Source of the DNA: Paenibacillus sp. R14(2021)
GTDB lineage: Bacteria; Bacillota; Bacilli; Paenibacillales; Paenibacillaceae
Assembly: GCF_019431355.1 (NCBI RefSeq)
Contig: NZ_CP080269.1
Span: forward strand, 2,108,001 to 2,172,000
DNA length: 64,000 nt
Reading direction: 5' to 3'
Shown: one piece after another, positions 16,354 through 57,275 of the stretch
How the letters are laid out: each line of letters starts with the position of its first letter
How positions within the stretch are numbered: position 1 is the first letter of the stretch
Notes under the pieces: model-generated
Seen by the model: only the letters and a program-made list of their open reading frames with translations
What the model was told of the DNA's origin: nothing
Database searches by the model: none
Program-made: the position numbers and the translations under genes

Positions 16354-17469
16354 CTATGTGCGATCCTGTCCGGATTTCAGCAGCAGGCTCATATGCTCGA
16401 GCAGCCCTCCTCCTCCGCCCATCAACGAAACCGTACCGATCTTCTCGCACATCTTCTCTAAGTATTCAAGCTCCTTTAGGCGGAACAGCGTTCCATTCTC
16501 CTCCATTAGCTTCGCCGTGTTTAACAGGCTGCGTGTCGAGGCCGTCTCTTCCCTTCTTGTGATGAGATTCGCTTGCGCCTTCTTCTCCGCAAGCAGCACC
16601 GTGTTCAGAATGTCCTTCACGTCTCCCGGCAAAATGACGTCCTTCACGCCCGCAGAGCTGAAAGTCACGCCAAACTCCGCTTCCTTCTCGCGAAGCCGAT
16701 TCAATACGTAGTCGCCGACCTCCCGTTTCACGCGCAGCAGCTCATCGAGCTTCATCGTCCCGACATACTCCCTTAAGATCAGCTGCAGCAAAATATAGAG
16801 CTGGTCTTTCATCTGGGCAATCGTGATCGTCTGCAGCGGATTCGTCACCTGATACTGGCAGACAAAATTAAGACGCAGCGGTATTTTATCCTCCGTCAGC
16901 ATTTCTTGACCTGTCATGTCGAGCTGCTGCCTCCGCATGTCGATGGTCTTCACGACGACAGCTGATGGGCCGCGCCAGAAGTAATAACGTCCTGGCTGGA
17001 GCTGCCGCTGAAGCTCATGATTAAAATACAATAACCCGATTTCCTGCTCGCCAACGTCGCAGATCTGAACATGCGTGCCAAGCTTCGGAATGATAGAACG
17101 GTCAAGTGACGCTGACAATTCCGGCTCGCGTACATCCGCGCGCACGAATTCTTGCTTCGCGAAGACAGTCCAGAACGCGTATTTTCCGGGCTTGAGGAAC
17201 CCGGCATATTTGCCATCCTCGTACCAGAGCACATACTCGTAGTCCCGCACATCGATAACCGCCAGCTCCCGCAGCAGCGCCTGATCTTGCAGAAAAATAT
17301 GCAGGTCCTTCCCCTGCACGGCAAATGGCTTGGTAACATTCAGTACCTCTACTTTATCGACCGAGAAAGACGACAATCGGTACGTACCCGGCTGTAAGCA
17401 TCGGATATAGCTCCCTCGGCGGAAAAGCATACCGCGCTGATCGTTCTGAATCGTTATTTTCTTAAACAT
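16354..17469 (-). CDS. SPFH/band-7 (slipin-like) protein with three N-terminal LxPGxY repeats
   Basis: Protein of 371 residues. The SPFH core (about residues 165-300) contains LTEDKIPLRLNFVCQYQVTN, IAQMKDQLYILLQLILREYV and the helix LLAEKKAQANLITRREETAS, typical of slipins. There is no N-terminal transmembrane hairpin. Instead residues 1-165 hold three repeats spaced about 66 residues apart, each ending in LQPGTYRL, LKPGKYAFW or LQPGRYYFW. The ATG at 17469 has AGGAGG 9 bases upstream; the in-frame TTG at 17478 is part of that spacing. SPFH proteins build membrane-associated rings. A structured tRNA-like RNA lies immediately upstream on the same strand, with no terminator between. Confidence 0.85.
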   Translation of the reverse strand: MFKKITIQNDQRGMLFRRGSYIRCLQPGTYRLSSFSVDKVEVLNVTKPFAVQGKDLHIFLQDQALLRELAVIDVRDYEYVLWYEDGKYAGFLKPGKYAFWTVFAKQEFVRADVREPELSASLDRSIIPKLGTHVQICDVGEQEIGLLYFNHELQRQLQPGRYYFWRGPSAVVVKTIDMRRQQLDMTGQEMLTEDKIPLRLNFVCQYQVTNPLQTITIAQMKDQLYILLQLILREYVGTMKLDELLRVKREVGDYVLNRLREKEAEFGVTFSSAGVKDVILPGDVKDILNTVLLAEKKAQANLITRREETASTRSLLNTAKLMEENGTLFRLKELEYLEKMCEKIGTVSLMGGGGGLLEHMSLLLKSGQDRT

Positions 17470-17499
17470 GTATATCAACCTCCTAAAGAAGATAAATGA

Positions 17500-17940
17500 C
17501 GCTGCAAGTCTGCGCGGAACCCCGCGGGCTGCGAACGGAGCTGCGCTTCAGGCGGGATGGCCTCGTTTGGGCGGCAAGCGGTCAAGTGCCGAATGCGCGC
17601 TTGTCATGCAAGCGGGCTTTCTGGCATGAATCCTGCTGCAGCTCCTTACGAAGCTCGGCCGGCCGGTATCTGCCCAGCTGCAAAGCTCTTGCCCGGTGCC
17701 CGGAAGACAGGCTGGGTGCTTCGTGCAGACTCGCGTTTAATTGTTTGGTGCTCGATCCAATGTCGAGTGCTCTACCATGAGCGGGTCGCAGTGAAGGCGA
17801 CGGGATTCGAACCCTGATAAGGAGCTGCAGGGAACCCGAACTGACAGTACACCGGGACACAGCGTGCCCGAAGCTGCGGGATGATCGACATCCCTGCTTG
17901 CGTAAGCCGGCATTCCAACTGGAGCTTCTTCATTATTGCG
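17500..17940 (-). ncRNA. Structured RNA with a permuted, capped tRNA-like module (YrlA-like candidate)
   Basis: Minus-strand RNA between the terminator of the GGDEF gene and the slipin gene. Its core gives, in order: a T-arm GGG-TTCGAAT-CCC (17802-17814), a capped acceptor-like stem GTCGC-CTTCACT-GCGAC (17785-17801), two linker bases, a D-arm GCTC-ATGGTA-GAGC (17769-17782), one linker base, and an anticodon-like arm of 5 bp with loop CATTGGA (17751-17767). A 13-bp helix closes the module (17818-17830 with 17636-17648) and a 7-bp helix (17718-17724 with 17648-17654) stacks beside it. Upstream hairpins include GGGATG-TCGAT-CATCCC. This order, with the tRNA ends joined by a loop, matches the tRNA-mimic module described for bacterial Y RNAs. 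The ends of the RNA are approximate and no promoter is evident. Confidence 0.65.
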
Positions 17941-17987
17941 GAAAAGCCGGAAAGCGAACATGGCGTAAGTATTACAACCGCAGCAAT

Positions 17988-18047: not shown

Positions 18048-21000
18048 TTATGATCCCGATAATTCCGTTAATTCCAATATCCCTTCGCCGCTGTGGACCG
18101 CGACCGTATTGCGCGTCCGCTTTGCCTGATACAGCATGATGTCGGCGGCAGACACAAGCGCTTCTTCGCTGACTTCTGGCTCCGGAATAACCGATGCGAC
18201 GCCAAAGCTGACCGTCAAATACGAGCTGACTTTAGACTTGCTGTGAGGGATGCACTTGTTCTCGACTCCGGCTCGTATGGCTTCCCCAAGCGCAGCTGCT
18301 TCCAGAAGCGTCGTATTCGGCAGCACGATGCCGAATTCCTCGCCGCCGTAACGGGCGACGAACCCCTCCGGATCCACCAAGGAGGACCGCGCGTACGCAG
18401 CGACTGATTTCAAGGCTGTATCGCCTCTAAGATGACCGTAGCTGTCGTTATAGGACTTAAAGTAATCGATATCGAACATGATCAGCGATAACGGCTGCTG
18501 CTTATGCGCATGGAGCTGCCAATACTCGTGCAGCTGCTCGTTGAAGTATCTTCGATTGAAGACGCCTGTCAGTCCATCCAGCGAGGACAGCTTCATCAGC
18601 TCATTGTTGGCTGCTTTAAGCTCGTTCTGAATCGCAATCCGGCTCGTAATATCCGACAACGAGATGAGCACGCTTCGCATCCTGCCTTCGCGATCGAAGG
18701 TCGGCGAGCAATTGCACGAGATCATGACGCGGGTGCCGTTCGGACGCTTGACGATGAATTCCGAATTCGATACCCGGTCCCGCGTTCGAATCGCAATCGT
18801 AACGGGATAATCCTCGGCTTGCATGCGCTTCCCGTCAAAATCATAAATCTCCCATGCGGCATCGTCATAAGGCCGGTTCTCAATATCCCCTTTATTCATC
18901 CCGAATATCTCTTCGGCCATCCGATTCGCCATGGAGATCATGCCGTTCTCTTCAACGACGACGATTCCGTTCGGTACCGTCTCGATGATCGTGCTCAGCC
19001 TGGATTGGCTCATGGCAGCCAAGTATTCCAGCTCCTTGCGCACCGTTACATTTTGCAAATAGACCGATAGACCGTCTTTGGACGGATAGATATGCACTTC
19101 ATACCAGGCGTTCAGATGCGGCATATACTCTTCCGTAGATATCGGGACCTGTTCCTTCACGGCCCTGCGGAAACAAGCATGCATATGGCTATTCAGCATA
19201 CTCGGATAAACCTCCGCCAGCGCCCTGCCCATGATTTGCGGTCTTTCCCTGCCGAGAATGACTTCCGCTTCGCTGTTGACGTACGTAAACAGCCAGTCGT
19301 TATCAAGCGCCATGAAGGCATCCGTAATGCTTTCCAAGATATTCGCGATTCGCTCCTGGGATTCCCGGTATGCCTCCTCTGCCGCCTTCAGCTGCGTAAT
19401 GTCGCGGCTGACAGAGACAACACCTTTGACGACACCTCCGTTATTCCGAAGCGTCGAGTATGAGGTTTGATGATAATACGCAGCGCCTGTCGGCGATTGG
19501 ATCGACCAATCAAGCACCGTGTTCTTGCCTTCCAATGCTATGCGCTGCGCGTTCTCGTGCATGCGGGCATTGACGGGATTGAGCAGTTGGTGAATCGTCT
19601 TGCCGGAATAGAGCTCCTGCGATTCGTTGAGAAACCCGTCCATAGCTCTGCCGTACACGCCCATCAGCTTCAAATCGGAATCGAACGTGGATACGACCTC
19701 ATCCATGGAGCCGACGAGCAGCCGAAACCGTTCTTCGTTATCGATAAGCGATTGTTCGATTTGACGCTGCTCCGTGATATCGATACCGATACTGATAATA
19801 TGTTTGATTCCGCCGCTTGCTTCCAGATGAATCGAGTTGTTCCAAGCGATGAGACGAAGCTCGCCGGACCGCGTGCGCCAGTGGTTCTCGTTGCGGTAAC
19901 TGCCCCCAGCCTCAAGCAGGTCTTGAAAGTGCCCGCTCACGCTCTGCACTTCTTCTTCCGGGATGAGAAAGTTGTAGATCGAAGCATGCTGCAGCTCATC
20001 GAAGGTGTAGCCGGTGACAAGCTCGCAGCTGCGATTAAACTGCAGGATGCCCCCGTCCTTATCGAGCACCACGATCAGGGAAGCAGCCGTATCAATAATA
20101 GAAGCGGCAAAATTCCGTTCTTTGCTCAGCGCTTCGGTATGCTCCATGATCGTGTCCGCCATGGAATTGAACAGCCGGCACAGCTGCTGAAATTCCAATG
20201 TGGAGGACATCAGGGTGCGCTGATCGATCCGGTAATGATAACCGCCGTCCTTGATCATACGAACCCCCGTCAGAAGCTGATGCAGCGCGTGCGAGATCCG
20301 TTTCGAGATGCGTAGCATCAAGAGGATCGCTGCCAGCACCGACAGCAGAGTGAACAAACCCGCGTATTTCAACTCGGTGTACAGCGATGCCAGAACATCC
20401 TGCCGGGCAGCTTCGCCGATAAGGAGCCAATTGCCGTTGTTCGCCCATCGATAGCCGCCGTACACAGTCACGCCGGCGTAGTTGACATAGGCATCCGTAG
20501 ATATGGAGCCGGCTGCCGCGCGTTCAAGAAGCCACGGCTTCACCTTAGCCGGCTGCGCTGTCCCGCTTCCCGCACCAGTAATCAATTGGCCGTCCTTACT
20601 GACCAGGTAGGTCTGACCATCCTCGCCGTACGAGAACTGCTGCATGAACCGCTCGATGGTCGTCAGCTCCACCGTGCCCATCACGATTCCGCCGAATGAG
20701 TGATCTTCGTTCTCGATCGGCGTAGAGAAGACGATGATACGCTTGCCGTCGACGCGCGAGAAAAGCACATCGGATACGGATTCCTTCCCTTGCTGCGCTG
20801 CGCGGAAATAAGGGCGGTCCTGTATGGAAATGCCAATTTCATTGAAGCCGTTCTTGCCGATGACGTTGACCGATCGAAACTCGCTGTGATTGCGCTTAGC
20901 CAGTGCGATGATTTGCTCTAATTTCGCTTGCTGCCCATGCTTCGTCTCTGGCAGATTCGCAAGCAGCCGAATGTCGGACATGCGATCACTCATCCATTTA

Positions 21001-21200
21001 TCTATAAACTGCTGCTGCAGCACAAGCGTTTGCGCCAATTGCCGGTGGATATTCTTCTCCTGATGATTCAATTCAATATAAGAGAACATCGCCGTACATG
21101 CCGCCCCGACAATGAGCACGATAACGAATCCGAGCGTGCGCAGCTTGTTATTTAAAGTCCTTGCCTTGCCAAATATGAATGGAATCGAGTTGATTTGCAT
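18048..21200 (-). CDS. Membrane sensor diguanylate cyclase (Cache-HAMP-PAS x4-GGDEF)
   Basis: Protein of 1050 residues. An N-terminal helix (about 20-42), an extracellular dCache sensor (about 45-280, with DRPYFRAAQQGKESVSDVLF), a second helix (about 285-300) and HAMP precede four PAS domains between residues 365 and 870. The C-terminal GGDEF domain has SSLDGLTGVFNRRYF, FDIDYFKSYND, GHLRGDTAL and ARYGGEEF, so the active site is intact for making c-di-GMP. The inhibitory I-site RxxD is replaced by DPEG. No EAL or HD-GYP domain is fused. AGGGAG lies just before the ATG. Monocistronic. Confidence 0.92.
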   Translation of the reverse strand: MQINSIPFIFGKARTLNNKLRTLGFVIVLIVGAACTAMFSYIELNHQEKNIHRQLAQTLVLQQQFIDKWMSDRMSDIRLLANLPETKHGQQAKLEQIIALAKRNHSEFRSVNVIGKNGFNEIGISIQDRPYFRAAQQGKESVSDVLFSRVDGKRIIVFSTPIENEDHSFGGIVMGTVELTTIERFMQQFSYGEDGQTYLVSKDGQLITGAGSGTAQPAKVKPWLLERAAAGSISTDAYVNYAGVTVYGGYRWANNGNWLLIGEAARQDVLASLYTELKYAGLFTLLSVLAAILLMLRISKRISHALHQLLTGVRMIKDGGYHYRIDQRTLMSSTLEFQQLCRLFNSMADTIMEHTEALSKERNFAASIIDTAASLIVVLDKDGGILQFNRSCELVTGYTFDELQHASIYNFLIPEEEVQSVSGHFQDLLEAGGSYRNENHWRTRSGELRLIAWNNSIHLEASGGIKHIISIGIDITEQRQIEQSLIDNEERFRLLVGSMDEVVSTFDSDLKLMGVYGRAMDGFLNESQELYSGKTIHQLLNPVNARMHENAQRIALEGKNTVLDWSIQSPTGAAYYHQTSYSTLRNNGGVVKGVVSVSRDITQLKAAEEAYRESQERIANILESITDAFMALDNDWLFTYVNSEAEVILGRERPQIMGRALAEVYPSMLNSHMHACFRRAVKEQVPISTEEYMPHLNAWYEVHIYPSKDGLSVYLQNVTVRKELEYLAAMSQSRLSTIIETVPNGIVVVEENGMISMANRMAEEIFGMNKGDIENRPYDDAAWEIYDFDGKRMQAEDYPVTIAIRTRDRVSNSEFIVKRPNGTRVMISCNCSPTFDREGRMRSVLISLSDITSRIAIQNELKAANNELMKLSSLDGLTGVFNRRYFNEQLHEYWQLHAHKQQPLSLIMFDIDYFKSYNDSYGHLRGDTALKSVAAYARSSLVDPEGFVARYGGEEFGIVLPNTTLLEAAALGEAIRAGVENKCIPHSKSKVSSYLTVSFGVASVIPEPEVSEEALVSAADIMLYQAKRTRNTVAVHSGEGILELTELSGS

Positions 21201-56965: not shown

Positions 56966-57275
56966 CAATAAAAAAATCCCACCCCCAAGACTGAAATCAG
57001 TCTCAGGGACGAGATTGTATGCTCGTGGTACCACCCGGATTCGCTGACATGTCGCCATATCAACCTCTTCGAGTACGGCATTGGCTGGCAATGCGTATAC
57101 TCTAGCTCTGTAACAGGAGCTCCCGGCACACCTGTTCCACGTTACATGGGTTCCTGATGTGCTGCTCTGAGCCTTTTTTCGGTAAAGCACTCTTTGCTCC
57201 TTTTCAGCTGCCGGAGCTCTCTGCGAAAGAATCCATTTACCTACTCTTCTCTTCATCGCATTTGAATATTGCGAT
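56966..57275 (-). promoter_or_regulatory. T-box riboswitch (leader of asd)
   Basis: The minus strand holds the T-box sequence GGGTGGTACCACG (57022-57037) in the antiterminator, and a terminator (stem of GAGACTG-ATTT-CAGTCTT inside CCC/GGG arms) ending in T7 at 56970-56976. Upstream, stem I has the AGTA motif next to GGTAAA (paired with TTTACC), the AGAGAG element and GGCAGCTGAAA distal loop. The specifier side reads GAA-AAA-AGG, so a lysine codon AAA is my best reading, at low confidence. Confidence 0.88.

Follow-up and report, generated by a model that had tools for sequence, protein, structure and literature searches.

A conserved permuted tRNA-like RNA upstream of slipin genes in Paenibacillaceae and a promoter motif in common with RNA-repair genes

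The slipin locus and its structured leader

A slipin/SPFH gene lies on the minus strand of the 64-kb window, which is the whole stretch of Paenibacillus DNA that was analysed. Its product matches the SPFH/Band-7 domain (PF01145, E 9.6e-26). The neighbours of slipin in the window are PAS/GGDEF, TetR and MFS genes; RtcB is not adjacent. The gap between the PAS/GGDEF gene (18048-21200) and the slipin start at 17469 contains a structured leader on the minus strand. Read from the promoter side, the features of the locus are:

17956..17977, minus strand: promoter/operator motif TTGTAATACTTACGCCATGTTC, whose 11-bp direct repeat overlaps the -35 region
17932..17937, minus strand: -10 element AATAAT, exactly 18 nt after the motif
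17878..17894, minus strand: 5' hairpin H1, GGGATG...CATCCC, with compensatory changes in Paenibacillaceae leaders
17843..17877, minus strand: hairpin H2, GCAGTGCC...GGTAT..CTG in relatives, with compensatory changes
17818..17830, minus strand: 5' side of a 13-bp long-range helix (CTGCAGCTCCTTA/TAAGGAGCTGCAG), not generally conserved
17736..17817, minus strand: whole permuted module as matched by covariance model R1 (65 bits, E 1.9e-19)
17801..17816, minus strand: T-arm, loop TTCGAAT, stem of 3 bp (GGG/CCC)
17785..17801, minus strand: acceptor-like hairpin joining the tRNA ends, 5 bp (GTCGC/GCGAC), 7-nt loop CTTCACT
17769..17782, minus strand: D-arm, GCTC-ATGGTA-GAGC
17751..17767, minus strand: anticodon-like arm, 5 bp, 7-nt loop CATTGGA
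17663..17672, minus strand: 3' conserved box, CAGATACCGG here and GGATACCG in relatives
17636..17648, minus strand: 3' side of the 13-bp long-range helix, not generally conserved
17536..17551, minus strand: further conserved stretch before the slipin start, consensus CT.AAG..TCCG
17476..17485, minus strand: slipin ribosome binding site, read from the sequence
16354..17469, minus strand: slipin/SPFH gene, 371 aa from ATG

Transcription would start near 17925. A T-box leader was found elsewhere in the window (57002-57265, minus strand, 99.4 bits).

Read directly on the minus strand between 17751 and 17816, the arms of the module come in the order T, acceptor, D, anticodon. Two bases separate the acceptor-like hairpin from the D-arm and one base separates the D-arm from the anticodon-like arm. 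An ordinary tRNA runs from the 5' side of the acceptor through D, anticodon and T to the 3' side of the acceptor. The module is therefore a tRNA whose ends are joined by a loop and whose opening lies in the variable region, as the initial annotation had proposed. The annotation had also stated that the elements follow tRNA geometry exactly except for order; the arms and their order are present as described, but "exactly" is overstated because the T-arm stem has just 3 bp. ARAGORN found no tRNA gene in the 64-kb window, which together with the non-standard arm order rules out an ordinary tRNA. Rfam models, whose use had been recommended along with a tRNA gene search, gave no match that would assign the RNA to a known family; this is a weak test, because evident Y-type RNAs of Ro60 loci were likewise unmatched. 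The R1 match was the only one in the window up to E 1, the locus itself being a seed of the model. Energy folding of the module alone did not form the T and anticodon arms of this sequence (z -1.0), so the structure rests on comparison of relatives; folding of 207 nt gave a z of -2.45.

RNAalifold analysis of 73 non-redundant Paenibacillaceae leaders (of 94 aligned) supported H1, H2, the T-arm, the acceptor hairpin and the anticodon arm. The ATACC of the 3' conserved box is complementary to the GGTAT of H2; the pairing of the two is unproven, because both are nearly invariant. A long-range pairing of the D-loop to GATACC suggested by RNAalifold was rejected for the same reason. The initial annotation had further placed the module inside the 13-bp helix, with a second, 7-bp helix nearby. 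Both complements exist exactly in this sequence, CTGCAGCTCCTTA/TAAGGAGCTGCAG being perfect and the shorter one being ACGAAGC/GCTTCGT. As a conserved design, the 13-bp helix did not survive comparison. Among the 83 loci with both anchors, for flanks of about 55 nt ahead of the T-arm and 70 nt beyond the 3' box, the longest complement was at chance level (8.05 observed vs 8.05 shuffled), and only this sequence and L076 exceeded all 40 of their own shuffles.

Conservation of the module and its resemblance to a tRNA gene junction

Searches that used different thresholds and counted the source genome detected slipin relatives in 15 of 299 genomes from the class, 8 of 398 from the phylum and 96 of 245 from the family. 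The family set (96 slipin genomes) was made up of 30 loci from the search, 60 fetched upstream regions and three from earlier searches, the upstream regions of G723, G734 and G742 being left out. A total of 109 loci was analyzed, with L043 and L056 dropped as repeats of L004 and L008, and with L001 standing for L011 (one genome).

The permuted tRNA-like RNA upstream of slipin is real and conserved. The module is present upstream of slipin in 102 of the 109 loci, comprising 38 model seeds, which match by selection since they were chosen for a complete, alignable module, and 64 of the 71 others, counted at E below 0.001 and including many close kin of the seeds. The proposed pairing of a tRNA-like RNA with an SPFH/slipin gene, and the expectation that the arms recur upstream of homologous slipins, were thereby borne out. 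A search of 98 Paenibacillaceae whole genomes with R1 placed its best 23 matches (86.6 to 42.2 bits, several of them model seeds) directly upstream of slipin genes. The seven loci without a full module match are L017, L021, L022, L024, L025, L114 and L115; L017 has a partial match only and L022 what looks by eye like a diverged copy. Upstream of the short slipins of L017 and L025 are tRNA-like stretches, containing GGTTCGAATCC, that depart from the permuted model, and the stretch of L017 may, by eye, keep the normal arm order without a D-arm.

Two comparisons with shuffled sequences support the structure. A complete T-acceptor-D-anticodon parse was obtained for 63 of 106 slipin-upstream regions (the 109 minus L001, L017 and L025) vs 15 of 1150 T-loop-anchored shuffles; this slightly favours the real loci, for which the best of the candidate T-loops was used and for each shuffle one. 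In a MAFFT alignment of the 38 loci made with no structure input, 86.8% of cells were paired vs 78.4% in shuffles, double (compensatory) changes were found in 14 of 18 pairs and the covariation score was 0.238 vs 0.114. None of the 500 shuffles reached any of the three values, and most of the signal was lost when the partners were shifted by one to three columns. Compensatory changes in homologues, the check that the initial annotation had named, are thus present. The acceptor-like hairpin has a compensatory change in all four of its counted pairs. The D-stem is the weakest element, at 60% of cells paired, owing to unequal loop lengths and to a shift of some rows by one column.

Some loci contain more than one module or part of it. 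A second T-arm and hairpin follow the first module in L001 (Kroppenstedtia), L009, L010, L013 and L014. In G523, from another family of the phylum, two tandem T-acceptor-D modules lie between RtcB (PF01139, E 2.8e-85) and slipin.

Of the lower R1 matches (from 41.7 bits down), each of the 15 that were examined spans the junction of ordinary tRNA-Glu and tRNA-Lys genes in tandem. Such a junction reads T-arm, acceptor 3' side, spacer, acceptor 5' side, D-arm, anticodon arm. The junction of the source genome has the T-loop and the D-arm sequence TGGTAGA in common with this locus and three relatives, and the tRNA-Lys loop ACTTTTAAT in common with L052 and L006. Among 62 loops identified by a rule of 5 bp and 7 nt, 44 keep the tRNA signature of T at position 2 and A at position 6, and eight are CTTTTAA, the loop of the source genome's tRNA-Lys. 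The junction order, the common sequence and the tRNA-like loops suggest that the module may descend from a tRNA-Glu/tRNA-Lys junction, in which case a pair of tRNA genes, and not a cut circle, would be the source of the permutation.

A promoter motif in common with RNA-repair genes

The motif TTGTAATACTTACGCCATGTTC has one copy in the 64-kb window at up to 3 mismatches, vs 0.06 expected. This 22-base motif, with its 11-bp direct repeat, was found upstream of the leader in 77 of 109 slipin regions. A -10 hexamer with A at position 2 and T at position 6 follows it by exactly 18 nt at 76 of 77 slipin sites and at 41 of 43 others. A plain σ70 consensus scan detected no promoter at the motif (17956-17977). 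In the family, the motif is present in 65 of 98 genomes at no more than 1 mismatch, and the backward control in 9.

The source genome contains three copies at no more than 2 mismatches, and one of the backward pattern. The second copy lies some 60 bp before the likely start of RlaP (PF10127, E 2.8e-99), which is followed by RtcB. The search for RtcB suggested at the outset therefore located RlaP-RtcB in trans, behind the same promoter motif. A gene whose product has WYL and WCX domains (hereafter WYL2) is oriented divergently from them, and the other gene beside the WYL gene has no Pfam match. The third copy (L118 1501-1705, from 4390595) is followed by about 150 nt ending, by eye, in a terminator-like hairpin; the transcript is a possible small RNA of the regulon.

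Outside the slipin loci, 40 regions with the motif were picked by hand among the matches listed. RlaP and/or RtcB lie downstream of the motif in 18 of these 40, with RtcB in fragments in one of the 18 (L149). A TROVE/Ro60 gene was found in seven of the 40, five of them within the 18 with RlaP/RtcB, and Hen1 in two. In all seven Ro60 leaders a Y-type RNA sequence, read by eye in the order anticodon-T-acceptor-D, lies between promoter and gene. Again among the matches listed, a family of about 700 residues occupies nine of the 40 regions (L128, L131, L133, L136, L140, L141, L144, L147, L159), and the two members scanned match NF041916, the MXAN_6230/SCO0854 family, below the cut-off. A family of about 310 residues occupies three of the 40 (L130, L137, L164), the member scanned (L137) having no Pfam match over the cut-off. 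None of these genes was seen behind the motif in six of the 40.

RNA-repair genes were also sought by tblastn up to 900 nt upstream of the slipin loci, with matches of 59-98% identity over the part visible. The end of RtcB was detected immediately before the slipin RNA in 14 of the 109 loci and RlaP in one, and WYL2, the protein that is divergent from RlaP-RtcB in the source genome, is divergently transcribed in 19. Coordinates confirmed the order RtcB, RNA, slipin in four genomes (G753, G713, G061, G749), and the motif precedes RtcB in three of them. We infer that a WYL protein controls the promoter.

Co-occurrence was tabulated for 98 family genomes, with the slipin column copied by hand from the family slipin search, one slipin partial (G723) and one RtcB broken (G750). 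The motif was present in 35 of 37 genomes with slipin vs 30 of 61 without (p 1.8e-6), and RtcB in 30 of 37 vs 31 of 61 (p 0.003), both tests ignoring kinship; RtcB was not found in seven of the 37 slipin genomes. Two kinds of RtcB occur in these 98 genomes, with E values to PF01139 near 1e-115 and near 1e-67. The first kind includes the copies beside the slipin RNA in the four genomes named above, the second those seen with RlaP.

The slipin protein and possible roles of the RNA

The initial annotation had considered a membrane system as one possibility. This slipin has no membrane segment, the maximum 19-residue Kyte-Doolittle mean being 1.06 vs 3.04 in the same scan of the short slipin of L017, and a membrane slipin/stomatin with a hydrophobic anchor is thereby ruled out. 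As modelled, the protein is composed of three tandem beta repeats followed by the SPFH domain and a C-terminal helix. Two vault chains align with it from residue 4 through the SPFH domain, and the N-terminal repeats alone had no Foldseek match at E 0.001 or better.

We consider it probable that the leader gives rise to a structured non-coding RNA, driven by a regulated promoter that precedes slipin, which acts as a partner of the slipin protein. The RNA would most likely be released from the slipin transcript and bind the soluble SPFH protein. The tRNA-shaped module would then be the docking or mimic part, bringing the assembly to RtcB, RlaP or damaged tRNA during RNA damage. Support for this partner RNA comes from the covarying structure, the linkage to slipin, the promoter common to RtcB, RlaP, Ro60 and Hen1 genes, the operon with RtcB in some relatives and the WYL regulator nearby. 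Since the slipin locus and RNA-repair genes have a promoter in common, RtcB and RlaP are the likely partners of the locus. Weighing against the partner-RNA reading are the missing RtcB beside slipin in the window, the seven slipin genomes in which RtcB was not found, the missing association of slipin with TROVE, the seven loci lacking a full module match, the energy fold of the isolated module, the negative σ70 scan and the six motif regions that lead to none of the named genes. Processing of the RNA, its binding by slipin, assembly of a ring and a role in repair are steps that we infer.

Several known systems bear on this reading. Burroughs and Aravind reportedly predicted in 2016 an SPFH/Band-7 scaffold with a cognate "novel tRNA-like molecule" in RNA-repair systems. 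The slipin described here is likewise an SPFH/Band-7 protein with a tRNA-like RNA next to its gene, and the locus is very probably a system of the same kind, with the difference that RtcB is encoded in trans, behind the same promoter. The combination of SPFH protein and tRNA-like RNA in RNA repair had thus reportedly been predicted already; what is apparently added here is the covariation, the arm order, the likeness to a tRNA junction, the promoter and its genes, the WYL neighbour and the repeat architecture. The hint thereby becomes a testable system, in which RNA and promoter are defined, the regulator is a probable one and several genes lie behind the same promoter. In Pseudomonas aeruginosa, the SPFH gene of PaFlo8 is described within an RtcA/RtcB/RtcR locus (PMC13086221). 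It resembles the slipin in its tie to an RtcB-type repair locus and differs in that its regulator is RtcR; the passage describing it mentions no tRNA-like RNA. No evident description of a slipin-linked permuted RNA was found in the literature searched, which consisted mostly of papers outside subscription.

A bolder form of the partner-RNA reading, which we offer tentatively, is a vault-like soluble SPFH particle whose permuted tRNA gates damaged tRNA and which a WYL protein switches on with RtcB, RlaP, Hen1 and Ro60-Y. The eukaryotic vault consists of the major vault protein with vault RNA, and its component TEP1 carries a TROVE domain. As modelled, the slipin would resemble it in having tandem beta repeats, of vault type in this view, followed by an SPFH-like shoulder and helix, and a putative small RNA partner, in this case perhaps born from a tRNA-Glu/tRNA-Lys junction. 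If so, one regulon would use two different tRNA permutations to serve two different proteins. The slipin system as a whole bears on whether the vault has a bacterial counterpart, on the purpose of bacterial Ro60 and Y RNAs, and on how RNA repair is switched in these bacteria, the studied case using RtcR.

The RNA could instead be a cis-acting leader, the tRNA-like element controlling translation or stability of slipin mRNA, for instance through capture of a tRNA-handling enzyme that is less available in free form once tRNA has been damaged. It lies on the slipin strand and upstream of slipin wherever it was found, a scan of this locus revealed no terminator-like site between RNA and slipin, and the stretch at 17536-17551 is conserved shortly before the slipin start. 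We nevertheless regard a cis-acting role as rather unlikely. In Ro60 loci with the same promoter, a Y-type RNA (recognized by eye) occupies the same leader position, which favours a partner RNA over a leader element more strongly than any other argument, and the second T-arm or second module of some loci also speaks against it.

Improbable, in our estimate, is a decoy for anticodon nucleases or toxins, i.e. a permuted tRNA that soaks up the nuclease and spares real tRNA. A role as competitive inhibitor was proposed for YrlA (PMC7790460), the 63 loci with a complete parse include an anticodon-like arm, and most of the loops keep the tRNA signature, the tRNA-Lys loop among them. However, the anticodon position varies, with 13 triplets among the 44 signature loops, the loop CATTGGA of this locus has lost the signature, and by eye the anticodon arm is lost or replaced in L007, L077 and L080.

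It is very improbable that the RNA is a Y RNA (YrlA) whose Ro60 gene sits elsewhere or was lost. YrlA also has a circularly permuted tRNA-like domain (PMC11472068), Y RNAs act as partners of a ring protein and in some bacteria are encoded alongside repair genes (PMC7790460, PMC8394870), and Ro60-Y loci of relatives use the promoter of the slipin RNA. Yet the arm orders differ, the slipin RNA opening in the variable region and the Y-type RNAs, by eye, between the D and anticodon arms, which agrees with the suggestion that the slipin RNA is distinct. The linkage is to slipin rather than Ro60/Rsr, and no conserved counterpart of the long stem that pairs the ends of YrlA (PMC8394870) was seen in the part examined (83 loci, flanks of about 55 and 70 nt). 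The absence of a Ro60 gene, pointed out earlier for the window, extends to the source genome (0 TROVE matches in 5.98 Mb, 95% complete), and slipin and TROVE were not associated in the 98 genomes (8 of 37 with slipin vs 15 of 61 without, p 0.81). Ro60 was accordingly rejected as the partner.

A chance or decayed tRNA pseudogene, or a tandem tRNA gene junction, is hardly credible: a real tRNA-Glu/tRNA-Lys junction does show this arm order, with scores reaching about 41 bits, and the module may well descend from one, but a bare tRNA remnant is already contradicted by the covariation, with compensatory changes across 38 loci, and the linkage to slipin and the lack of a tRNA gene in the 64-kb window also weigh against it.

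Two minor observations concern other regions behind the promoter. In L125 (854-1252), two copies of the repair promoter flank four ordinary tRNA genes. Between the promoter and the gene of the family of about 700 residues, L128 and L147 have the repeated stem sequences CAGGCTA...TCCTTCCTTCTAA...GCTTTCCTG; a third RNA-protein pair may be encoded there.
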